Source: Desulfatitalea sp. BRH_c12 (GTDB taxonomy: Bacteria > Desulfobacterota > Desulfobacteria > Desulfobacterales > Desulfosarcinaceae). From it: a stretch of DNA of 36,630 nucleotides. Of this stretch, positions 9,417-32,626 are shown piece by piece. How positions within the stretch are numbered: the stretch's first letter is position 1; every line of letters begins with the position of its first letter. The stretch is taken from assembly GCA_000961655.1 (NCBI GenBank), contig LADR01000088.1:1-36630 (forward strand), given 5' to 3'. The notes below the pieces were generated by a model. The model did not search any database. It worked only from the letters and a program-made list of their open reading frames with translations, and was not told where the DNA came from. The position numbers and the translations under genes are program-made.

Positions 9417-11174
9417 TTATCTCTCCAACCCCAAAACCCCTTCCACCTGCTCAGCCACCTCGCGGCCGGCCAGCAGGGTGTGTTGTCCGATGGCCCCTTC
9501 TACGGCCTGGAAGGCGCGCCGCTGGATGCGGTCGCGGCTCACCGCCAGGCGGGCGCATACCTGTAATGCGAAAAAGCTGAGCAGCAGGACAATCACGATG
9601 GTCAACACCGCATGCAGGAAAAAATCACCACTCAAGTAGGCGCCGCCCACGAAACTGGATGCGGTCAGCCAGGCCACATAGGTCATTAGGACTAAGCTCG
9701 GCAGGTTGAAAATGGTCTGCAGCAGCGCATGGCTCAGCGTGCGGGCGCTGCGTTCGATCTCCATATCCAGGGCATCGGTCCACATGCTGCGCGCCAGCTG
9801 TCCAACCGCCGCGCCGTCGGCGGCCTCCATGCGGCGCACGGAGGGATCGAAACGGCCCTGGATCAACTGTTCACCGATCTCCGGCCAGAGAGTCCACCAG
9901 GCCTGCTGAAAAGCCTGCAAGGCGGTATCCACGCGGTTGCGATCACCGAGGGTTTCTAAAGCAGCGCTGCTCTCCTTGTAGCGCCGCCACGACGAAATCA
10001 ACCCCCAGATCTGGTGCAGGGGATTGCCGAAGCGCACGAGGGCGGCCACCCCGCTGCCGAACAGGATCAGGCGCGACCAGATGGCCACGATCCAACCGAC
10101 CGGACCGACCCAGCGTTGGGCCAGGGATTGGTAGAGGCGCACATTGACCCCCAGAATCATACGGCGGTCATCGGCGCGCAGACTCTCCACGGCCCGGCGC
10201 AGGGCTTGCTGCTCGGCGACGGCGATGCGCTGGGCAGCCTGCGCGAGTACCGCGCGATCTTGTTCGGCGGCCCGGCGCACTTGGGTTTGCATAAAATCGC
10301 TGATCTGGCGCGCATTGGCCAGGCGCCGGTCCGGACCGAAACCGGGGCGGCTGAAAGTGCCGAAAATCAAATCGCGCAGCTGATCGAACTGGTCCAAGTC
10401 GTGGCGCGGTCCGGCCTGGGGGTCCCACTGCGGCCGCTGCAGATGACGCCGGGCCGATACCATCAGCACGGCTTGCGGCGCGATCTCCCAGGCCTGTGCC
10501 AGATAGGTTTTGAACTCCGGCACGATCACGTCGGTCAGTTCCTGCCGGTCCAGACGGTCGCACTGATTGACCACGGCCACCAGCGAGGCGCCGTGAAAGC
10601 GCTGTACCAGAGGTGCCATGAAATCGGCATGGTCGCGACGCTTGGGATTCTGGGCATCGAAAACGCACAGCAGTACGTCCGAGTGGGCGACGGCATGGTG
10701 AATCAGCGGCACGTGCGACGCATTCTGCGTGCTGTCCGTATCGGGCGTATCGATCAGGATCATGTGGGTCAGCATGTCGGCGGCCCGGCTGGCGCGGATC
10801 TGCACGTCGCCCTCGTCGAGGGGTCCGAGAAGCTGATGCACCGCGTCGGCGTCATTGGACAACGCCACCAGCGCGCGTGTGGTCGGCCGGCGGCTGCCCG
10901 TGGGCGACAGATCGTCGATGCCGGCCAGCGCATTGAGCAGGGTGGATTTGCCCGCGCCCGATGGCCCGATCAAAGTGACCACCAGGCGGCGGTCCAACCG
11001 TGACCGCAGGCGTTCCATCATGCGTCCGGCTTCGGCGGCCTGCTTGGCCAGCGCATGCGACGGTTGCCATAGCGGCACTTTGCCCAGCCGTCCGGCCAGA
11101 TCGTCCATGGCGTGCATCTGATTTTCGAGCTGCCCCAGGGCATCCAGGGCCGCCAGTTCCCGATCGACGATCAT
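9417..11174 (-). CDS. Dynamin-like membrane GTPase, second of a pair
   Basis: 585 aa. The G domain starts at ~65 with P-loop GPSGAGKST (G1), then PTTRALVAL (switch I threonines), 'MILIDTPDTDST' (G3, DTPD instead of DxxG) and 'VAVVNQCDRLD' (G4, NQCD). A helical middle region with amphipathic coiled-coil character follows (AEQDRAVLAQAAQRIAVAEQ). Near the end are two transmembrane helices close together (LPSLVLMTYVAWLTASSF and HAVLTIVIVLLLSFFALQV), a hairpin as in bacterial dynamin-like proteins. The ATG overlaps the stop of the upstream GTPase gene (ATGA), so both are translated together. Inferred role: GTP-driven membrane remodelling at the inner membrane. Confidence 0.75.
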   Translation of the reverse strand: MIVDRELAALDALGQLENQMHAMDDLAGRLGKVPLWQPSHALAKQAAEAGRMMERLRSRLDRRLVVTLIGPSGAGKSTLLNALAGIDDLSPTGSRRPTTRALVALSNDADAVHQLLGPLDEGDVQIRASRAADMLTHMILIDTPDTDSTQNASHVPLIHHAVAHSDVLLCVFDAQNPKRRDHADFMAPLVQRFHGASLVAVVNQCDRLDRQELTDVIVPEFKTYLAQAWEIAPQAVLMVSARRHLQRPQWDPQAGPRHDLDQFDQLRDLIFGTFSRPGFGPDRRLANARQISDFMQTQVRRAAEQDRAVLAQAAQRIAVAEQQALRRAVESLRADDRRMILGVNVRLYQSLAQRWVGPVGWIVAIWSRLILFGSGVAALVRFGNPLHQIWGLISSWRRYKESSAALETLGDRNRVDTALQAFQQAWWTLWPEIGEQLIQGRFDPSVRRMEAADGAAVGQLARSMWTDALDMEIERSARTLSHALLQTIFNLPSLVLMTYVAWLTASSFVGGAYLSGDFFLHAVLTIVIVLLLSFFALQVCARLAVSRDRIQRRAFQAVEGAIGQHTLLAGREVAEQVEGVLGLER

Positions 11175-13003
11175 ACGGACTCCTCCAATACAGCCAGCGC
11201 CCGCGCGATGCGTTCGAGCAGTTCGGCGGCGCGTGTGTGGGCCGTGCGGGCGGGGCCGAGCACTTCGCCGGTGATCTGCTGCTCGAACAGGGCCTCCACC
11301 GCCGTGAGTTTATGCGCGAGCCAGGTGCGGGCCACGGGGGCCAGCAACTGCTCCAGCTGACGCTGGTCGGCTTTTTTGAGCCCGGCCGTGGCCGGAATGG
11401 CGATCAGGGCATACAGATCGTGCAGCCCCAGCAAACCGGTCAGCTTGACCTTGATGCCCACGGCACCGGCTGGATCGCCGGTGTGCAGGATGTAGGTGAT
11501 GGCGGCCGTGGCCGGAATCACGTTGAGCAGGGCGGCGAAGGTCTGACGGATCTGGTCGAACACCCCCATGCGCTGCCGCAAGGTGCCGGCCAGTTCGGTG
11601 AGATCTTGCTCCAGAACGCCGGACCAGCTTAAGAGCGACGCTTTTTGATTTTCGATGTGGGTCAGGGCGGCATTCCAGTTCTTTGAGAGCAGTCGCTGCT
11701 GAATGGCGCGAACCACAGGATGCGCGTCAAGAGAGCCATGGCCGGCCTGAATACGCGTGTCCATGGTGGTCTGGTAGAGTGTATTGGCCGCGTGCAGCAG
11801 GTCAAACCCCATCAAACCGGCCGGGTCGTCCACTTCGGTCGGCTTCGGCGGCGGCTCACCGGTCCGGCGCGCCAGCCGCACGGCGGACAGCACCATTTTG
11901 AGCGGCCACTCCACCACCTGGCCGGTCCGGCGCATCAGCTTGATGTGGGTCGGGTCGGTGGCCACCCATATTTGAGCAAATCGGCGCAGCACCTGGTCGG
12001 TGGGAAAATGAGAGAGCGCTTGCTGTACACTCAGTCGTTGGGCCGTTTCGAGGGCCTCGATGTAGTCTGCGAGCCATTTTTGAGCATTGCGGAGTGTGCC
12101 GTTCATCTGGCGCGCATGCGCCAGCGCGTCCGCCATCATCGATTGCATCAACTGCCGTCTCAACGGCATGGGATCGAGCCCGGCCAGAGCGCTTCGCAGG
12201 TCGCGGCCGTCATCGACGGCACGCACCGCCATCGGTCGATCGCCCGCGGCAACGCGGTTGTCGTCGTCAGCGCGGAAAATACCGAGTACGTATCGCTCGT
12301 GATCCGCGCCATAGAGATTGGCGGCTGCGGTCAGGGCATGCTCGCGCACCTCAGCGTCGCTGAAACTGGGGTAGACCCGGTACACCAGGTAGCAGGGCCG
12401 GGTGCCCATTCCGGTGAGCAGCTGGGCGATGAAGTCGGAGTTGTCGCGGTTATTGTAAGTAGCATTGGTGAAAATATAGATGAAGGCATCGGCGCTTTCC
12501 AGGCTTTGGCGCGCCAACTCGCGGTTGGCGTATGCGCCGCGGGCGCCGGTGTCGATGTCGGGTGTGTCCAGCAGGACCATCTGCGGCAAACCGTCGTCGC
12601 TCAGGCAGTACACCGGGTCGCCGGGGGTGGTGAGCTGTTCGGCATCGCGCATCGGCTGCAGGCTGGCGCCGAACACATGCGCCAGGGCGTCGAACAACGC
12701 TTTCTGGCGCAAATGCGTCGCTTGCAAGGCGGCCAATACGCGGCGGTTTAACCCGGCGCGACCGCCGGTGGGTGAGACCGTGCGACCGATCAGGCTGTTA
12801 AACAAGGTCGATTTGCCGGCCGATCCGCCGCCGCAGATCGCCACCACGAGCGGGAAATCGGGTTGCAGCTTGGGCAGCAGTTTCACATCCAGCGCATGGG
12901 TCCAAGGCTGCAGCGCGCCGGCCATGTCCAGATGCAGAACATCCGCAGCGGCGGGAAGATCCTGCCGAAGCAATTCGAAAGCTTTTGTCGTTTTTGTTTT
13001 CAA
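11171..13003 (-). CDS. Dynamin-like membrane GTPase, first of a pair
   Basis: 610 aa. P-loop GGGSAGKST lies at ~57-65, then 'SPTGGRAGLNRRVLAAL' in the switch I position, 'MVLLDTPDIDTGARG' (G3, again DTPD) and 'PCYLVYRVYPSFSD' where a G4 N/TKxD motif would be expected; no canonical G4 is visible, so nucleotide specificity may be altered. A long helical region follows, then a hydrophobic hairpin (FAALLNVIPATAAITYIL and LYALIAIPATAG) at ~510-565. Paired dynamin-like proteins in one operon are known in other bacteria, where the two partners assemble together. The start is TTG at 13003 because an in-frame stop lies seven codons upstream; its GAAGGA is unusually close, so the true start is uncertain. 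Confidence 0.72.
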   Translation of the reverse strand: MKTKTTKAFELLRQDLPAAADVLHLDMAGALQPWTHALDVKLLPKLQPDFPLVVAICGGGSAGKSTLFNSLIGRTVSPTGGRAGLNRRVLAALQATHLRQKALFDALAHVFGASLQPMRDAEQLTTPGDPVYCLSDDGLPQMVLLDTPDIDTGARGAYANRELARQSLESADAFIYIFTNATYNNRDNSDFIAQLLTGMGTRPCYLVYRVYPSFSDAEVREHALTAAANLYGADHERYVLGIFRADDDNRVAAGDRPMAVRAVDDGRDLRSALAGLDPMPLRRQLMQSMMADALAHARQMNGTLRNAQKWLADYIEALETAQRLSVQQALSHFPTDQVLRRFAQIWVATDPTHIKLMRRTGQVVEWPLKMVLSAVRLARRTGEPPPKPTEVDDPAGLMGFDLLHAANTLYQTTMDTRIQAGHGSLDAHPVVRAIQQRLLSKNWNAALTHIENQKASLLSWSGVLEQDLTELAGTLRQRMGVFDQIRQTFAALLNVIPATAAITYILHTGDPAGAVGIKVKLTGLLGLHDLYALIAIPATAGLKKADQRQLEQLLAPVARTWLAHKLTAVEALFEQQITGEVLGPARTAHTRAAELLERIARALAVLEESV

Positions 13004-22144: not shown

Positions 22145-22609
22145 TTATAGATCCTGCATGTCCAGCTCATGGTCGATCTGGATGGCGGCGATGACACTCT
22201 GTGCGGCCGGGCAGTGGGGTAAATAGACCTCGAATGCAGCCTGGGCCGCGGCGCGTTGTTCCGATTTGAGGGCAAGGGTGTAACGCACGTGGATGCGGGT
22301 AATCTTGAGTACGCCGGCGACATCCTCGATCTCGCCGCTGACATCGGCGCGGTAGCGCTCCTGGGGTGTTGCGATCTTGCTTTTCGCCAGCACGGTGGCG
22401 AAGGTACCCATCATTCAGCCGCCCACGGCGCCGACCACATGATCCAGGGTGGCGGCATGCTCCTCTTCCGGTTCGATACGGTAAAAGCCTTTGATCCCGC
22501 CATGAACCCCGTAGTAAACGGGATCCTTGAATCCCTTGATAAACGCTTTTCGGGTGGGGCCTTTTTCGCGTGTAATGACAATCTCCGACCGGTGCACGAT
22601 GTTGCCCAT
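22145..22609 (-). CDS. Probable selenocysteine-containing OsmC-family protein
   Basis: Two directly adjoining ORFs in one frame (64 and 89 codons) are separated only by TGA (22415-22417). Read through, they give a 154-aa OsmC-family protein: N-terminal 'IVITREKGPTRKAFI', then EEEHAATLDHVVGAVGG-U-MMGTFATVLA and C-terminal LPHCPAAQSVIAAI. In this family the residue after 'GAVGG' is the reactive cysteine, and the second is in the CPxxxSV motif (Cys133 here). The stop is thus exactly at the catalytic position (residue 65), and a SECIS-like hairpin follows. OsmC/Ohr proteins reduce organic hydroperoxides by a Cys pair. Ribosome-binding site AGGAGGG lies five bases before the ATG. The alternative is a pseudogene or sequencing error, which would not explain both the position and the hairpin. 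Confidence 0.82.
22383..22402 (-). promoter_or_regulatory. Candidate bacterial SECIS hairpin
   Basis: On the minus strand UUCGCC and GGCGAA form a perfect 6-bp stem around the loop ACCGUGCU; an extra A-U pair can close it to a CCGUGC loop. The stem starts 13 bases and the loop 19 bases after the UGA codon, in the range known for bacterial SECIS elements, and the loop contains GU. It would recruit SelB with Sec-tRNA. It lies wholly within the coding sequence, as in formate dehydrogenase mRNAs. Confidence 0.65.
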
Positions 22610-22815
22610 GATGCCCTCCTGTTCATTTTGATAGGTAAATGGCTTTTCTGGTTATCCACTTCGCAAGTGAGATACGGGTGTGGGTGACGTAGGAAAACCC
22701 CGGTGCCAATCTCGAAAATCCAATAGTCACTGGAGCGAACTGGATAACCCAAATGGTTTTTTCAAGATAAGTCATTGGGAGCCATGCGCCAGCGCTGAAG
22801 ATGGGTGTTTTCGCA
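22610..22815. other. Gap between OsmC and phosphatase genes
   Basis: About 200 bp. It contains the OsmC ribosome-binding site and, at 22701-22717, gtgccaatctcgaaaatcc, a partial copy of the repeat motif seen at 23819-23838. No gene recognised. Confidence 0.4.
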
Positions 22816-25383: not shown

Positions 25384-25482
25384 TCGTCTTTGCATTGCAT
25401 CCCAATTGCGACAATGGTAACAAGCGAGGCCTTCGATGGTGCGGTGCAATCCGCTGCCAAGCAGATAACCCAAAAACAGTCG

Positions 25483-26421
25483 ATGTCGGGAGATATCCTT
25501 GCTTTGCGTATTCCGGATCGGTTTTACATCCTGCTTTTATCGATCCTGTTTGCGGCCGCGGCCGGAATGCAGGATGCGGGTGCGGCTGCCTTTAATACGG
25601 TGGTCGATCCTACCGGCCGGACTGTGCGGGTGCCGGTCGCGCCGCGCCGCGTCGTTGCCCTGGCGCCGAATGTCACCGAGATCGTTTACAGCCTGAACCA
25701 GGCGCATCGCCTGGTGGGCGTGAGCAGCTTCAGCACCTACCCGCCGGCCGCCCGGCATTTGCCCACCATTGGGTCCTACATCAATCCCGATGTGGAGCGC
25801 ATTGTCGCATTGCAGCCCGACCTGTGCATCGCCATCAAGGACGGCAACCCCATTGCCGTGGTTGAGCAGTTGCAGTCGATCGGGGTGCCGGTGTTCGCCA
25901 TCGATCCGCGCAATCTTGAAACGATTATGCAAAGCGTGCAGGCCATTGGCGACCTGCTCGACGCCGGCCCCCACGCAGATGCGGTGGTCGGCGATATGCG
26001 CCGGCGTATTGCGCGGGTTCAGGCGCGGATTTCCGGCATAACCCACCGTCCCAAAGTGTTTTTTCAGATCGGCATTTCGCCGATCGTTTCCGTGGGCAGC
26101 AAAACCTTCATTCATACCCTGATCGAAATGGCCGGTGGCGTCAATGTCACGGCCGGTCCCACGCCTTACCCGCGCTACTCGCGTGAACAGGTGATCGTCC
26201 TGGCTCCGGAGGTGATCGTGATCTCTTCGATGGAGCGCACAGCCCTTTTCGAGCAGGTTAAAGCCGAATGGATGCAATGGCCGGCCATTGCAGCCGTGAA
26301 AAACGGGGCGATTTTCATTGCGCCGCCTGATTTGTTCGACCGGCCTTCACCCCGACTGGTGGATGCGCTGGAATTGCTGGCGGCCTTTATACATCCCGAA
26401 ACGTCAGCGGAGCGGCCATGA
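25483..26421 (+). CDS. btuF: Cobalamin ABC transporter substrate-binding protein BtuF type
   Basis: 312 aa from ATG 25483. The frame is open further upstream (ATG 25414, TTG 25390), but only this start gives a normal signal peptide (RIPDRFYILLLSILFAAAAGMQDAGAAA); none has a clear ribosome-binding site. Class III binding-protein features follow: 'DPTGRTVRVPVAPRRVVALAPNVTEIVYSLN', PDVERIVALQPDLCIA, 'VFAIDPRNLETIMQSVQAIGDLL' and PRYSREQVIVLAPEVIVISS. It captures cobalamin or another corrinoid in the periplasm for BtuCD. Siderophore-type specificity is possible by sequence alone; the neighbouring cobalamin riboswitch and BtuB argue for B12. Overlaps btuC by four bases. Confidence 0.85.
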   Translation: MSGDILALRIPDRFYILLLSILFAAAAGMQDAGAAAFNTVVDPTGRTVRVPVAPRRVVALAPNVTEIVYSLNQAHRLVGVSSFSTYPPAARHLPTIGSYINPDVERIVALQPDLCIAIKDGNPIAVVEQLQSIGVPVFAIDPRNLETIMQSVQAIGDLLDAGPHADAVVGDMRRRIARVQARISGITHRPKVFFQIGISPIVSVGSKTFIHTLIEMAGGVNVTAGPTPYPRYSREQVIVLAPEVIVISSMERTALFEQVKAEWMQWPAIAAVKNGAIFIAPPDLFDRPSPRLVDALELLAAFIHPETSAERP

Positions 26422-27422
26422 CGCCGGACGCACCCAAGCTGACCCGGCGCATCATGTGGGTCGTGCTGGCATTGTCGGCCGTGCTGCTGGTCGTCGCCTA
26501 CATCGGGTTGACGGCGGGATCGGCCGGCGGCGGGCCCTGGGCGGTGATCAAAAGCCTGCGCAACGATAGCGATGCCCGACTGCTGCACGATATCATCTGG
26601 CGCCTGCGCCTGCCGCGCGTGCTGCTGGCGGCGCTGCTGGGCGCCACGCTAAGTCTGGGCGGCATGGTATTCCAGGGCCTGCTGCGCAATCCCCTGGCCG
26701 AGCCTTACATCCTGGGGGTTTCCGGTGGTGCGGCCATCGGCGCCATCGTCGGCATCTTGCTGGGTCTGGCACGTTTTCCAGGCGTGTGGCTGACCGCTTT
26801 CATCGGCAGCTTGGCGACTCTCGGTGTGCTTTTCCTGATGTCGGCCGGCCGCTCGTTTCTCCGAACCAACACCTTGCTGCTCTCCGGTGTGATGGTCAAT
26901 GCTTTTTGCGCAGCCGTGATCATGTTCCTGATCTCGATGGCCCAGGACAGCCGCCTGCATAATATCATTTTCTGGCTGATGGGGGATCTGGCCGCAGCCA
27001 CCACTGACAAGGTCGGTATACTGGCGGCCACGGTAGTGCCTTGCTATGTTGTTATTTTTTCCCGCTCGCACGCCATGAACCTGATGACCCTGGGCAGTGA
27101 CATGGCCCACAGCATGGGCGTCAATATCAAGTACACCACCGCCTTGCTGCTGGTGGTCACATCGCTGATGGTCAGTGCCACCGTGAGTTACTGCGGCTTG
27201 GTAGGCTTTGTAGGCCTGGTCATCCCCCACATGCTGCGCCTGGGCTTGGGCCCCGACCACCGCGTACTGGCTCCGGCCTGCATCCTGGGCGGCGGTGCAT
27301 TCATGGTGCTATGCGACGTGCTGGCGCGCACGCTGCCGGCACAGGGCGAGATCCCGGTAGGGGTCATTTCGGCGATGATCGGAGCGCCGTTGTTTATTTA
27401 CCTGCTTCGTAAGTCCGGATGA
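26418..27422 (+). CDS. btuC: BtuC/FecCD-family ABC permease
   Basis: 334 aa with about ten transmembrane helices. Family motifs are RLPRVLLAALLGATLSLGGMVFQGLLRNPLAEPYILGVSGGAAIGA, TLLLSGVMVNAFCAAVIMFLISM, and FWLMGDLAAAT near the middle; the coupling-helix region GLVGFVGLVIPHMLRL sits before PASILG-like PACILGGGAFMVLCDVLAR. It forms the inner-membrane channel with BtuD. ATGA overlap with btuF. The gene ends 83 bp before btuD with a repeat motif between them. Confidence 0.9.
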   Translation: MTPDAPKLTRRIMWVVLALSAVLLVVAYIGLTAGSAGGGPWAVIKSLRNDSDARLLHDIIWRLRLPRVLLAALLGATLSLGGMVFQGLLRNPLAEPYILGVSGGAAIGAIVGILLGLARFPGVWLTAFIGSLATLGVLFLMSAGRSFLRTNTLLLSGVMVNAFCAAVIMFLISMAQDSRLHNIIFWLMGDLAAATTDKVGILAATVVPCYVVIFSRSHAMNLMTLGSDMAHSMGVNIKYTTALLLVVTSLMVSATVSYCGLVGFVGLVIPHMLRLGLGPDHRVLAPACILGGGAFMVLCDVLARTLPAQGEIPVGVISAMIGAPLFIYLLRKSG

Positions 27423-27459
27423 TGGAAAAAACGTGTTGCGGCTAAGCGTTACGTTTTGA

Positions 27460-27480
27460 GTCAATTTACGGGATTGGCAC
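27460..27480 (-). repeat. Core motif of family B repeat between btuC and btuD
   Basis: cgggattggcacg, the reverse complement of the cgtgccaatcccg-type core found at 23817-23829, lies in the 83-bp gap that splits an otherwise tight operon. It is not a full element. Confidence 0.45.
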
Positions 27481-27505
27481 GCAAGAAACGAAGACGAAAC
27501 AGACT

Positions 27506-28324
27506 ATGATCTCCACCCATCCCATAGCGATCGATGTCGACGCATTGAGCCATGCTTTTGAGGGGCGTTCGGTATTGAACGACCTGCATTTTCAGGTGCC
27601 GGCCGGCTGTTTTTTCACCGTGATCGGACCCAATGGCTCCGGGAAAACCACGCTGCTCAAATTGATCCTGGGGTTATTGCCCCTGCAGACAGGCCGCGTG
27701 CGTATTTTAGACAAGGCCCCCGGCAGGTACGCGGCACGGGATCTGGCCCGTACCATGGCCTATGTGCCCCAGAGTGTGCCGCTGTCGTTCGCCTTCAGCG
27801 TGCAGCAGGTGGTCATGATGGGCCGTGCGCCGCACCTGGGCTGGCTGGGCATCGAAAGCCCGCATGATCTTGACCTGGCGCGCCAGGCGATGGACCTGTC
27901 CGGCATCGGGCACCTGGCCGGACGGCGTCTCGATCAGTTGAGCGGCGGCGAACAGCAGCGCGTATTCATCGCGCGTGCGATCTGCCAGCAACCGGCCATC
28001 CTGTTGCTCGACGAACCGACCGCCGCCCTGGATCTGGCCCATCAGGTCCGCGTCATGGATTTGATGGAGCGCTTAAAAAACGAACAGGGCATCACCGTGA
28101 TCATGATTTCGCACGACCTGAACCTGGCTGCCATGTATGCCGATCAGGTGCTGCTGCTCGATCAGGGCCATATTGCCGCATTGGGGCCGCCACGCGCCGT
28201 GCTGGATTTCAACGTCCTCGAAAAGGTTTACGGCTGCGCCCTGCTGGTCGACAAAAGCCCCCTGGGCGACTACCCCCGCGTGCATCTGGTCCCCGGCCGG
28301 TATCTGGATCCGAACAGGGATTGA
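27506..28324 (+). CDS. btuD: Cobalamin ABC transporter ATP-binding protein BtuD type
   Basis: 272 aa. Walker A GPNGSGKTT at 41-49, Q-loop Gln in AYVPQSVPLSF (~89), signature LSGGEQQR at 145-152, Walker B ILLLDEPTAALD (~165-176) and the H-loop in MISHDLNLAAMY. It matches FecE/BtuD/HemV-type ATPases of vitamin B12 and siderophore importers, which pair with BtuC. It powers corrinoid import across the inner membrane. The 83-bp gap to btuC is unusually long for this operon and contains a repeat core, but no terminator is seen, so read-through is likely. Confidence 0.92.
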   Translation: MISTHPIAIDVDALSHAFEGRSVLNDLHFQVPAGCFFTVIGPNGSGKTTLLKLILGLLPLQTGRVRILDKAPGRYAARDLARTMAYVPQSVPLSFAFSVQQVVMMGRAPHLGWLGIESPHDLDLARQAMDLSGIGHLAGRRLDQLSGGEQQRVFIARAICQQPAILLLDEPTAALDLAHQVRVMDLMERLKNEQGITVIMISHDLNLAAMYADQVLLLDQGHIAALGPPRAVLDFNVLEKVYGCALLVDKSPLGDYPRVHLVPGRYLDPNRD

Positions 28325-28458
28325 CGGGATGCATTGCAGGGGCGTTCGCCCGTTGCGTGCGATGCCGATGCGTTGTTGACGACCGAGGGGGGTGCGTCGA
28401 ATGAAAACCGACACAAGGTTCGCCCTCACAAAAAGCGCTGCAGTCGCCTTAAAGGTTC
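28325..28458. other. Gap between btuD and riboswitch, with short repeat remnants
   Basis: No gene. aggggcgttcgcccg (28340-28354) resembles the family A hairpin with a shortened stem (GGGCG-tt-CGCCC), and cacaaggttcgccctc (28413-28428) resembles the family A tail (gcacaaggttcgctctc at 21039-21055). This may be a degenerate copy; the match is short. Confidence 0.35.
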
Positions 28459-28487
28459 TTGACATCCTGCTTCCAAATGCGTTAGTG
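28459..28487 (+). promoter_or_regulatory. Probable promoter of the riboswitch-btuB transcript
   Basis: A perfect TTGACA (28459-28464) is followed after 17 bp by TTAGTG (28482-28487), a poor -10. Its distance fits a transcript start just before the riboswitch. Confidence 0.4.
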
Positions 28488-28499
28488 GCCCGAATATAC

Positions 28500-28677
28500 G
28501 GTTCAGGTGCTCTCGAAATGGAGCTGTTCAAGGGAACTCCGTGCGATTCGGAGACGGGCCCGCCGCTGTAACCCCGCCCGACACCACTGTCGGGAACCTC
28601 ATGCGCCCTGTGCGCCACTGTCTGATTCAGGATGGGAAGGCTGCGCGTGAGGCGGGGAAGTCAGAAGACCTGCCTGG
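28500..28677 (+). ncRNA. Cobalamin (AdoCbl-type) riboswitch
   Basis: The conserved core is present in order: aaggGAACtccgtg, gacgggcccgccgctgtaac (28551-28572, the J6/3-like GGGCCCGCCRCUGU region), and the closing B12 box gaagtcagaagacctgcc (28657-28674). It represses downstream genes when cobalamin is plentiful. It sits in front of btuB and is followed by an intrinsic terminator, so transcription attenuation is the likely mode. The ABC importer genes lie upstream and are not under this switch. Confidence 0.93.
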
Positions 28678-28739
28678 ACGATGTTGGCCTTACTGGCGTG
28701 GACGACCGTTGGCCTGTGGATCGGTGGATAAAAAGGGAC

Positions 28740-28776
28740 ATCCCGGATCGAAATTTTCTTCGGTCCGGGATTTTTG
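28740..28776 (+). terminator. Intrinsic terminator downstream of the riboswitch
   Basis: ATCCCGGA (28740-28747) pairs with TCCGGGAT (28764-28771), extended by three inner pairs (one wobble), and is followed by a T-run (28771-28775). It separates the cobalamin riboswitch from btuB and is the expected expression platform. The btuB ribosome-binding site follows ~25 bases later. Confidence 0.85.
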
Positions 28777-28812
28777 TTTCCGGACCACCTGAGCGGAAAG
28801 GGAGTTCAAGAG

Positions 28813-30816
28813 ATGCGTGCTACCGGTATTTTTATTTTGATCAGTGTAATGCTGTTGGTCGGCGGGCTGTTCGATGCAACCCGGGCGCAAGAGCCAGCCG
28901 AAGATCCCGCGAAGACAACTTTGGGCGAGGTGGTGGTGACCGCCAGTCGCGAAAAAGAAGAAGTTACCAAAGTCCCGGCGCATGTGACGGTAATATCGGC
29001 CAAAGATATTGAAAATTCCACAGCACAGAATGTTCCAGAAGTGCTTCGCTCTGCTGGTATTCATGTAATTGATGTAGGTGGCAATCAGCGCAATTATAAT
29101 GTCGATTTGCGTGGATTTGGAGAGAGTTCTCCCCAGAACGCACTGTTGCTCGTGGATGGACGACGAGTCAACCTCCCTGACCTCTCTGGCCCCGATTGGA
29201 ATCTGGTCCCTATAGAACGCATCGAACGAATCGAAGTTGTCCGTGGCGGTCGCGGAAGTGTGCTATATGGCGATAACGCTACCGCGGGTGTTATCAACAT
29301 CATTACAAAAGAAGGGGCGAAGACGGCAGGAAGTGTCACTGCTGCATTTGGCAGTTATGACACTTTCAAAACTGCCGCTTCGCTCAGCGGAGCGCTTGGA
29401 ATCGGCGGGTATGATTTTAGCGCGAGTTATTTTGATACGCATGGCTACCGTGACAACAGTAATAGTGATGTAAAAGATCTGGGAACCAATTTATGGTTGG
29501 ATCCGAGCGATCGTGTCAGGCTGCATTTAAGTGCAGGGCACCACTACGATGATACTCGCAACCCTGGGGCTTTGTTGGATAGTGCATTGAACGCTGGTGT
29601 TTCACGAAAATCCACCACCCACCCTCTCGACTTTGATAAGGTGAAAGATTATTACATCAAAGCTGGCGCTGAAGTAAGCATTCTATCCAATGATCTCTTC
29701 AAACTAGAAGCGTCCTGGCGTGATCGGGACAAAGAAAGCTACGGAACATATTCCGGAGGTCTTTATTGGTTTGATGCGGATACCCAGTCGGATATTCTGA
29801 CCATATCTCCCCAGCTGATCTTTAAGGAGGATTTTGGTGGCATATCAAATACAATCATCTTTGGCGTCGATTATTCACAGGCCGAGCAGGACTATGATAG
29901 CACTGGTACTTCGGGCGACATAAAAGCGAAACTTGAAAAGATAAACAGCGGTTACTTTATTCATGATGATCTTAACCTGGATAATAATATTTCTTTGTCA
30001 GGCGGCTATCGATACGATCGGGCGGAATTCAAATATCGTCCCGCGAATGTAAGAAAAAGAAAATTGGATGAGGAGGCTTTTGATGTCGGTATCAATTATG
30101 CCTTAAACAAGGTCTCTCATATTTATGCGTCTTTTAACCGCGCATTCCGGTACCCCGTATTGGATGAACAATTCAGCTACCTATACAGTTCTGTAAACAC
30201 TTCGGTTGAACCCCAGACATCGGACAACTACGAAGTGGGCGGATCAATCGAAGTCGCCGGTGGGCTAAGAATACTTGCCAATTTTTTTCGAATTGCCACT
30301 GAAGATGAAATCTATTTCAATCCAGTCTCTTATCTTAACGAAAACATGGAGGATGATACCATCCGCCAAGGGGTTGAATTGGGTTTGGATTGGCAGTTAC
30401 ATGCCCTTCGTATGGGCGCTACCTACACCTATACTGAAACCGAATTCGATGACGGTCTCTACGCCGGCAATGAGGTCCCTTATGTTCCGCGCCACCAAGG
30501 GACAGCATACATCAACTATGCTTTCAATTCGGGATTGTTTATAGGATTGGATGCAAACTATATTGGTAGACGTTATTTGATCAGCGATTTTGAAAACCTA
30601 TTTGACAAAGCCGAATCGTATGCTCTGGTCAATGCCAAGATAAAATACGATTGGCGCTGGCTGTCCTTTTTCGCCAACCTAAATAATATATTCGACAAAG
30701 AATATTCGGCCTACAGTGGTCTTTCGTATGAGGCGTTCCCGGCGGAACCTGGTAGTTATCCCTCGCCCGGATTTAACGTCCTGGCCGGGGTCACCGCCCG
30801 GTTCGGCGGTATGTAA
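28813..30816 (+). CDS. btuB: TonB-dependent vitamin B12 receptor BtuB type
   Basis: 667 aa from ATG 28813 (GGGAG eight bases upstream; an earlier in-frame start at 28774 lies in the terminator). A signal peptide ends near RAQ. The TonB box is in TTLGEVVVTASREKEEV, as in E. coli BtuB. The plug domain shows 'RNYNVDLRGFGESSPQNALLLVDGRRVN' and 'IERIEVVRGGRGSVLYGDNATAGVINIITK', followed by a 22-strand-type barrel ending with phenylalanine-rich 'FNVLAGVTARFGGM'. It imports cobalamin or other corrinoids with TonB energy. The gene's base use appears AT-richer (AAT, TAT, TTT codons) than exbB-tonB downstream. Confidence 0.9.
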   Translation: MRATGIFILISVMLLVGGLFDATRAQEPAEDPAKTTLGEVVVTASREKEEVTKVPAHVTVISAKDIENSTAQNVPEVLRSAGIHVIDVGGNQRNYNVDLRGFGESSPQNALLLVDGRRVNLPDLSGPDWNLVPIERIERIEVVRGGRGSVLYGDNATAGVINIITKEGAKTAGSVTAAFGSYDTFKTAASLSGALGIGGYDFSASYFDTHGYRDNSNSDVKDLGTNLWLDPSDRVRLHLSAGHHYDDTRNPGALLDSALNAGVSRKSTTHPLDFDKVKDYYIKAGAEVSILSNDLFKLEASWRDRDKESYGTYSGGLYWFDADTQSDILTISPQLIFKEDFGGISNTIIFGVDYSQAEQDYDSTGTSGDIKAKLEKINSGYFIHDDLNLDNNISLSGGYRYDRAEFKYRPANVRKRKLDEEAFDVGINYALNKVSHIYASFNRAFRYPVLDEQFSYLYSSVNTSVEPQTSDNYEVGGSIEVAGGLRILANFFRIATEDEIYFNPVSYLNENMEDDTIRQGVELGLDWQLHALRMGATYTYTETEFDDGLYAGNEVPYVPRHQGTAYINYAFNSGLFIGLDANYIGRRYLISDFENLFDKAESYALVNAKIKYDWRWLSFFANLNNIFDKEYSAYSGLSYEAFPAEPGSYPSPGFNVLAGVTARFGGM

Positions 30817-30831
30817 GGCATAGGGGCGGTC

Positions 30832-31470
30832 ATGTATCAATTTTTCACAAGCGGCGGGCCGGTGATGTATCCTTTGCTGGCCTGCTCGTTCATCGTTTTG
30901 ACGGTCGTTTGCGAGCGGGCGATCTTCTGGCTGCGGCTGACCGTGCGGCGCAACCGGTCCTTGATCGATGAGGTGCTGGAACTGTGCCGCCGCGGCGACT
31001 GGGAGGCGGTGCGCCGCAAGACCGCCGGCAGCAAGGATTTCGTGGTGCGCATCCTGGTCAGCGGAATTCTGCACCGCGAGTTTTCGATGCTCAAGGCCAT
31101 GGAGGCCGCCGCGGCCGACGAGATTCAGCGCATGCGGCGCTACATGACCGTGCTGGATACGATGATCACGGTTGCGCCCATGCTGGGTATCCTGGGCACC
31201 GTCACAGGCATCATCACCTCTTTCGAGATGCTGGGCACGGCCGGACTCGAACAACCGGCGGCGGTGACCGCCGGGGTGGCCGAAGCCCTGATCAGCACGG
31301 CTACCGGGCTGGCCATCGCGATCTTTTCGGTGTTTCCGTACAACTATTTCAACTCAAAAGTGGCGCGCGCCACCCTGGACATCGAAAAATACGCGACTAG
31401 TTTGGAAATAGTATATGAAAAACTGAGCCACGCGGCTTCGCCTGAGATAAAAGGGCCAAGCGTAAAATAG
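30832..31470 (+). CDS. exbB: ExbB/TolQ-family proton channel protein
   Basis: 212 aa. Transmembrane helices at ~11-30 (GPVMYPLLACSFIVLTVVCERAIFWL), ~115-140 (VLDTMITVAPMLGILGTVTGIITSF) and ~150-175 (EALISTATGLAIAIFSVFPYNYF), the MotA/TolQ/ExbB pattern with the conserved APMLGILGTVTGI and ISTATGLAIAI. Together with ExbD it uses the proton gradient to energise TonB. It is 15 bp after btuB and 23 bp before exbD. By position it serves BtuB rather than Tol/Pal. Confidence 0.9.
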   Translation: MYQFFTSGGPVMYPLLACSFIVLTVVCERAIFWLRLTVRRNRSLIDEVLELCRRGDWEAVRRKTAGSKDFVVRILVSGILHREFSMLKAMEAAAADEIQRMRRYMTVLDTMITVAPMLGILGTVTGIITSFEMLGTAGLEQPAAVTAGVAEALISTATGLAIAIFSVFPYNYFNSKVARATLDIEKYATSLEIVYEKLSHAASPEIKGPSVK

Positions 31471-31493
31471 CCGAATGAAAAGTAAATAGATCG

Positions 31494-31904
31494 ATGAAAA
31501 TTCCCGTCCATACCCGCTCGGCGGCGCGTATCGAGATGTTGCCGCTTATCGATGTGGTTTTCCTGCTGCTGGTGGTCTTCATCTACGCCATGCTGTCCAT
31601 GGCTGTGCACAAAGCGCTGCCGGTGGCCCTGCCTACCTCCGGCACCGCGCAGACGCAACAGCAGACCCTGCTGTCCATTACGGTTACGGCGCAAAACGCC
31701 ATTTTTGTCGATAAAAGGCCGGTGCCGCTGGATGCGTTGGCCGATGTCCTGCGCGAGCGGTCCGCCCAGGACGATGAAACGGGCGTTATGCTTTTCGCGG
31801 ACCATGATCTGTCTTACCAGTCATTATTCAAGGTGCTCGACCAGGTGCGCCGGGCCGGCTTGAGCCGTATCCATTTGCAGGCTGAATCGGAGCCGCGGCC
31901 ATGA
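31494..31904 (+). CDS. exbD: ExbD/TolR-family protein
   Basis: 136 aa. One N-terminal transmembrane helix with the expected aspartate in 'EMLPLIDVVFLLLVVFIYAML' (Asp in LPLIDVVF carries the proton in ExbD), then a periplasmic domain with 'LLSITVTAQNAIFVDKRPVPLDALADVLRER' and 'VMLFADHDLSYQSLFKVLDQVRRAGLSRI'. Partner of ExbB. It overlaps tonB by four bases (ATGA). Confidence 0.9.
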   Translation: MKIPVHTRSAARIEMLPLIDVVFLLLVVFIYAMLSMAVHKALPVALPTSGTAQTQQQTLLSITVTAQNAIFVDKRPVPLDALADVLRERSAQDDETGVMLFADHDLSYQSLFKVLDQVRRAGLSRIHLQAESEPRP

Positions 31905-32626
31905 TGCGCTGGGTCGTGCCTGTGTTATGTTCGCTGGGCATTCATGTGGCCCTGTTCAACGTATCCTGGGAAACAACGCGGCCCGCCTACGCCGTTTCGC
32001 AAAACCGGGCCGTCACTATCTCCCTGGAAGTGCTGGCCGCCCCGGAGCCCGCCGCGCCGGTTGCACCCCTGCCCGTCCCGCGCGTCAAAGCGGTTCAGCC
32101 CTTAAAACCGCTTGCCGTTGTAAAACCGCCTGAAAAAAAGAACAAAATCGCGAGGCCGCCGGCCCCCACGCCTGCTGAAGTGCTGGAAAGTCCTGCGCCG
32201 GCTCCCGAGAAAGATCGGCCAGCAGTGTCGAATGACCCGCCGGCGCAAACGCCTGGTCCCGACCCATTGCCTGATGAACAAGCCATGGCTGTGAACCGCG
32301 CGTCGTCAAATGCGCCTGACGGTTCTGCGGCCACTGCGGGATCGGCGCAGGTCACAGCCTCGGTACCGCTCTACGCCCTCAATCCCGCCCCTGCGTATCC
32401 CACTGTGGCCCGGCGCCGCAATTATCAGGGCACCGTTTATCTGAACGTACGGGTTGATCGCCAGGGCCGGGCCGTCGAAGTCGAGGTTCAGCAAAGCAGC
32501 GGGCATGCCGTTCTGGATCAAAGTGCCGTGAAAAGCGTTCGTCAATGGCGGTTCGAACCGGCTCGGCGTGCTGGCCAGCCGATTGACATGTGGGTGCGGG
32601 TGCCGGTGCGTTTCGCACTGGAATGA
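31901..32626 (+). CDS. tonB: TonB energy transducer
   Basis: 241 aa. An N-terminal helix (VVPVLCSLGIHVALFNVSW) is followed by a long Pro/Ala/Lys-rich spacer (residues ~45-130) that spans the periplasm, and a C-terminal TonB domain: 'PAYPTVARRRNYQGTVYLNVRVDRQGRAVEVEVQQSSGHAVLDQSAVKSVRQWRFEPA', with the conserved YP and final WxF segment. It carries ExbB/ExbD energy to BtuB at the outer membrane. It closes the riboswitch-controlled operon. Confidence 0.92.
   Translation: MMRWVVPVLCSLGIHVALFNVSWETTRPAYAVSQNRAVTISLEVLAAPEPAAPVAPLPVPRVKAVQPLKPLAVVKPPEKKNKIARPPAPTPAEVLESPAPAPEKDRPAVSNDPPAQTPGPDPLPDEQAMAVNRASSNAPDGSAATAGSAQVTASVPLYALNPAPAYPTVARRRNYQGTVYLNVRVDRQGRAVEVEVQQSSGHAVLDQSAVKSVRQWRFEPARRAGQPIDMWVRVPVRFALE

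Follow-up and report, generated by a model that had tools for sequence, protein, structure and literature searches.

The closest described systems are the cysteine peroxidases of the Ohr/OsmC type (PF02566) and a small set of OsmC-like selenoproteins. In Ohr, a peroxidatic Cys becomes oxidized and forms a disulfide with a resolving Cys, which is then reduced by lipoylated proteins; Arg19 and Glu51 assist catalysis (PMC5962072), and in XfOhr the two cysteines are Cys61 and Cys125. OsmC-like proteins carrying selenocysteine (Sec) have been in print since 2005, with three Sargasso Sea sequences assigned to COG1765, and the new families of that study had SECIS-like stem-loops behind the TGA (PMC1088965). 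The GOS survey reported five OsmC-like selenoproteins with the motif UxxT, its table row giving 5, 3, and 161, the last of which we read as the number of Cys homologues (PMC2398784). Reviews from 2022 and 2026 devote one row each to the OsmC-like selenoprotein. For the RNA element, the bSECIS model expects a hairpin loop 16-37 nt behind the UGA, an upper stem of 4-16 bp, and a minimum free energy of at most -7.5 kcal/mol, and it demands a G in the first two apical positions (PMC13188914).

Here, we analyze a gene in a 36,630-nt stretch of DNA (hereafter, the window), for which a first-pass annotation had proposed an OsmC-family selenoprotein. Its statement that Sec-containing OsmC-like proteins had been put forward earlier was right (PMC1088965, PMC2398784). 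The kind of protein is already known; the group to which this one belongs appears to be uncatalogued in the literature on Sec-containing OsmC/Ohr proteins and in NCBIfam.

Results

The coding sequence occupies positions 22145-22609, the coordinates given by the annotation, and lies on the minus strand, which had been left unstated. Read from 22609 to 22145, the frame runs from the ATG at 22609 through 64 codons to a TGA at 22415-22417, continues for 89 codons, and ends with TAA at 22147-22145; the two previously described ORFs thus share one frame with only this TGA between them. A Shine-Dalgarno sequence, AGGAGG (22615-22620, minus strand), read directly from the sequence, precedes the first ATG and is the ribosome-binding site that had been noticed in front of the first half. 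The joined product comprises 154 aa, with the TGA at residue 65 (...HVVGAVGG-U-MMGTFATVLA...) and the presumed resolving Cys133 within HCPAAQS (codon 22211-22213, minus strand). With C in place of U it scores 42 bits against the Pfam OsmC model (PF02566; gathering cut-off 27.5), in line with the proposed family. On the level of the reading frame, it is confirmed that the two ORFs represent one gene with the TGA as its sole interruption.

Relatives were collected from a sample of genomes that is not exhaustive. With the joined protein as query, matches were obtained in 18 of 60 related genomes, own genome counted (E 1e-10), and in 36 of 395 genomes of the phylum (E 1e-15), and a 48-row profile matched 68 of 389 genomes of the class (E 1e-6), 66 of them with a TGA-containing match. 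Across these searches, 99 distinct genomes of the phylum contain a relative with the TGA, in one case as a broken copy (G709). At the position aligned to residue 65, TGA is the codon in 90 out of 90 readable loci, a set that includes the gene of the window and repeat fetches of some genes and leaves outside three fragments without this column (L113, L114, and L115). Rows of the class profile that lack the TGA are short pieces (G544, G531, G557, and a second row of G709) and look decayed. Within the genus, nine of 11 genomes carry the TGA, own genome included, and the gene is absent from the other two, both 99% complete, showing its patchy occurrence. The contig scan had a single relative among the matches listed, a Desulfobacterales locus with 69% identity (L014), and a plasmid collection gave no match to the gene. 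As the named relative is a Desulfobacterales MAG, one may guess at an anaerobic and sulfur-rich setting.

This conservation bears on the reading of the TGA as the mark of a decayed gene or a base error, which would fit the broken or partial copies found elsewhere (L111, L113, L114, L115, L146, and L147, with an extra TAA or as N- or C-terminal pieces only). These copies suggest repeated loss of the gene among the relatives. The invariance of the codon in all 90 readable loci effectively refutes decay or error for the gene of the window itself, and the eight other genomes of the genus with TGA rule out a base error at 22415-22417, the possibility raised in the annotation. Furthermore, among 10 sequences of the family of the window (45 pairs), dN/dS of means amounts to 0.065 upstream and 0.185 downstream of the UGA, well below 1 on both sides, and mean pN/pS to 0.13 and 0.30, respectively. 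As far as substitution patterns can tell, purifying selection acts on the parts before and after the TGA alike, with a downstream half that is less constrained and clearly protein-coding. We regard decay or sequencing error as the least probable of all readings considered, with practically no chance of being right.

Behind the UGA, at about 20 nt, the window holds a candidate bacterial SECIS-type hairpin with a 7-bp stem (22383-22402, minus strand). Its distance of 19-20 nt, its 7 bp, and its energy of -8.9 kcal/mol lie within the ranges of the bSECIS model. If an additional inner C-G pair forms, CGU (22394-22392) is left as the apical triplet; in the minimum-energy fold this pair is open, and the 6-nt loop CCGUGC starts with CC and has no G in its first two positions. 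The 55 nt of the window fold no better than shuffled versions (z 0.30; 117 of 200 shuffles equalled or exceeded their stability). As a consequence, the hairpin of the window proves nothing by itself, and the comparison across relatives has to carry the argument.

For this comparison, the 90 loci were reduced to 72 distinct 45-base stretches counted from the TGA on (identical 45-mers merged; L116, which contains an N, and the broken copy L111 were left out), consisting of group A (56 sequences) and group B (16 sequences). In group A, the eight proposed pairs are standard in 95.3% of cells. Partners slid by one to three positions paired in at most 57.6%, a control that leans toward the proposed stems because their positions were picked after viewing the sequences. 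Permutation of synonymous codons, which ignores phylogeny, gave a mean of 88.4%, and none of 1,000 permutations reached the observed pairing. Exchanges preserve the pairs: one position hosts 43 G-C, eight C-G, and one A-U, another 30 C-G and 19 U-A, and the inner pair 38 C-G, five G-C, and three U-A, being non-standard in six of 56. Judged by these sequence exchanges, the hairpin behind the UGA is maintained by covariation in group A. With the inner pair closed, 37 of the 56 sequences have GGU as their apical triplet, and in 54 a G falls within its first two positions; in group B, 16 of 16 have a G in these positions. Energies of -7.5 kcal/mol or lower were calculated for 54 of 56 and 15 of 16 distinct sequences, respectively. 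The annotation had described a hairpin of SECIS shape at the right distance, and distance and covariation in group A speak for it, whereas the fold of the window alone, at z 0.30, does not.

Group B (L043, L098-L110, L112, and L117) has a different hairpin, with a loop UGGNN located 25 nt instead of about 20 nt behind the UGA. Its pairs are standard in 96.9% of cells, with slid versions pairing up to 78%; the permutation test was non-significant (84 of 1,000 reached the observed pairing), and one member, L117, breaks three of six stem pairs.

The same alignment addresses a reading as two small proteins, in which translation stops at the UGA and starts anew at the adjacent downstream ATG (UGAAUGAUG), as in coupled genes. 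An ATG does follow the TGA directly in the gene of the window and in 55 of the 56 distinct sequences that make up group A. However, all 16 group B sequences and one of group A have CTG at this place and still keep the TGA, which disfavors stop-restart translation; moreover, a split would leave the active-site column without a residue, and the stem behind the UGA covaries. This makes two separate products very improbable compared with a single protein read through the UGA.

A Sec reading demands a suitable decoding apparatus. The annotation had named selA, selB, selC, and selD as the genes to look for, and all four were found in the own genome: selA (614 bits), selB (380 bits, model positions 1-580 of 581), tRNA-Sec (72 bits; tRNA-SeC with anticodon tca according to ARAGORN), and selD (373 bits). 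The selD gene (L024, G000 C66:111700-112626) contains a single in-frame TGA immediately ahead of ASKLAPGD, presumably the usual Sec/Cys site of SelD, and SelD itself is therefore probably a selenoprotein. When 29 Sec rows were aligned with 11 Cys-type OsmC/Ohr proteins (four encoded by the own genome, seven by other genomes of the phylum), the TGA column proved to be Cys in 11 of 11; relatives thus show either Sec (TGA) or Cys at residue 65, as had been anticipated for true homologues. A UGA read as Trp or Cys, or by plain read-through, has the open frame alone in its favor and is at odds with the Cys column in all aligned non-TGA relatives, with the full Sec machinery and the second TGA gene, selD, and with the hairpin at the expected distance; we give it hardly any weight. 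Machinery, Cys column, TGA conservation, and hairpin covariation all favor the annotation's reading, and the UGA is almost certainly decoded as Sec, which would make the product a selenoprotein.

Co-occurrence with selA was considered as further proof of Sec decoding and discarded, as it neither supports nor excludes it. Counted by hand from listings, selA was not found in eight of 68 class genomes with matches vs 22 of 321 without (p 0.21), and in one of 36 phylum genomes with matches vs 39 of 359 without (p 0.15). The comparison is uninformative because nearly all sampled genomes have selA (359 of 389 in the class, 355 of 395 in the phylum). The eight class genomes with matches and without selA are drafts of 60-91% completeness, for which missing contigs are a likely, albeit unproven, explanation.

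An AlphaFold2 model with Cys for Sec (pLDDT 90.1, pTM 0.82) has residue 65 within an extended helix (55-76) and Cys133 immediately ahead of helix 134-139. Among PDB entries, Foldseek ranks highest the OsmC proteins of Thermoplasma and E. coli and Ohr proteins from various bacteria (best E 3.8e-8), and the 50 listed rows are OsmC/Ohr or putative/hypothetical entries with TM by query of 0.60-0.71 and 9-18% identity. A sequence search of the PDB returned one insignificant match. The predicted structure thereby bears out an OsmC fold. The two redox residues, U65 and C133, align to both OsmC/Ohr Cys columns. Cys133 never varies in two sets of Sec rows (48 of 48 and 29 of 29), and 10 of the 11 Cys-type relatives have Cys at this position; Arg20 is likewise unchanged throughout the 29 Sec rows. 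Fold, both redox columns, and an invariant Arg in the N-terminal part are shared with the Cys peroxidases of the Ohr/OsmC type. In contrast to these, Sec replaces the peroxidatic Cys, identity to the 50 listed structure matches is only 9-18%, and no Glu is conserved through both groups A and B (29 Sec rows), for which reason a canonical Ohr site is putative.

We then compared the protein with the published OsmC-like selenoproteins. Likeness to the Sargasso Sea/GOS proteins (COG1765/PF02566) lies in the superfamily and in Sec at the reactive-Cys position, and this shared replacement (PMC1088965, PMC2398784, and PMC9312934) is what would speak for our protein simply being the published one, presumably the family captured by NCBIfam NF041052 (OsmC_like_Se). 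Against that model it scores 18.1 bits at a cut-off of 95 and fails; five of eight further members from both groups score 12.4-23.1, and three are unlisted. A Cys-type OsmC of the own genome (C24:459273) lies nearer to NF041052, with 70 bits. The motif also differs: the published one is UxxT, whereas here it is UxxG followed by T, in the form of UMMG in group A (ULMG in L083) and ULTG in group B. In addition, no complete Cys counterpart of this group was seen in the sampled phylum genomes, as opposed to the 161 entries of the GOS row read as Cys homologues. Identity with the published protein is on balance unlikely, and from motif and NF041052 score the proteins look like a separate OsmC Sec group.

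The nearest non-Sec proteins in a sample of 355 phylum genomes are Cys-type OsmC proteins (L139-L143; E 9.5e-15 to 1.3e-13 over residues 50-151). They have Cys at both redox positions, corresponding to the U65 and C133 columns; their N-terminal third is unmatched, they show CIVSASV instead of CPxxxS, and they form a separate branch in the tree. This 40-row tree, the root of which is a midpoint only and whose long outgroup branches limit its reading, separates group A from the remaining rows at one branch (100/97), and another, moderately supported branch (89/78) separates all Sec rows from the rest. Group B does not form one group, and four of its rows stand beside A (86/49). Based on searches at E 1e-10, 1e-15, 1e-6, and 1e-4 within the sampled genomes of one phylum, the group appears to be Sec-only.

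Gene neighborhoods were inspected by clustering the flanks of 82 loci including the window (mostly 1.5 kb) and the immediate neighbors of 20 loci, and no neighbor was common to all relatives. A conserved operon as functional hint was consequently dropped, with synteny being confined to genus or family level. In eight own-genus loci, a HAD-type phosphatase gene lies upstream. In seven loci (L078, L082, L084, L085, L087, L089, and L093), a rubrerythrin-like gene follows in the same direction, succeeded by a flavodoxin-like gene in six of the seven and a ferredoxin-like gene in five; these neighbors, named by eye, fit oxygen or peroxide defense in this one family.

Elsewhere in the window, a cobalamin riboswitch (90 bits; 28488-28691, plus strand) precedes a TonB-dependent receptor within a locus at 25390-32626, having a periplasmic binding protein, a FecCD permease, and an ABC ATPase before and ExbB, ExbD, and TonB after it; this locus probably serves vitamin B12 uptake. 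A 610-aa ORF at 11171-13003 (minus strand) contains a dynamin-family GTPase domain.

Discussion

Taken as a whole, the best explanation is one Sec-decoded gene for an OsmC-fold protein with a Sec/Cys redox pair, which we hold with high confidence. The UGA at 22415-22417 would be decoded by SelB and tRNA-Sec, guided by the downstream SECIS hairpin, yielding a 154-aa OsmC-fold protein in which Sec65 replaces the peroxidatic Cys and Cys133 takes the place of the resolving Cys. By analogy to Ohr, the selenolate of Sec65 in the central helix would attack an (organic) hydroperoxide or a related oxidant, and the resulting selenenic acid would form an Se-S bond (selenenylsulfide) with Cys133. A dithiol donor would then reduce this bond, the candidates being lipoylated proteins, which serve Ohr, and thioredoxin-like proteins. 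We consider the chances of this particular sequence of attack, Se-S bond formation, and dithiol reduction to be evenly balanced. Of the Sec/Cys hydroperoxide reductase postulated by the annotation, the two residue columns and the OsmC fold stand; the reductase role is still an inference, and hydroperoxide reduction is a likely but putative job in view of fold and residues.

A second suggestion is more tentative. Sec may be indispensable, because Sec was found in 99 sampled genomes and no complete Cys version was seen. It is conceivable that the phylum harbors an uncatalogued OsmC group bound to Sec, which would be chemically required, e.g., for a substrate or reductant beyond the reach of Cys; we place the chance of this slightly below even.

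For annotation practice, a gene caller taking the TGA as a stop splits this gene. The authors of a recent selenoprotein predictor state that selenoproteins without Cys homologues may escape it (PMC12013277). If the present group is indeed Sec-only, families of this type would tend to evade detection methods built on Cys/Sec pairs. The spacing of the SECIS loop varies within the family, being about 20 nt vs 25 nt behind the UGA. The finding adds a second, separate-looking OsmC selenoprotein that is distributed across one bacterial phylum. It also offers a clean test case for the question why some lineages retain Sec, with no reversion to Cys, in a peroxidase fold that otherwise relies on Cys.
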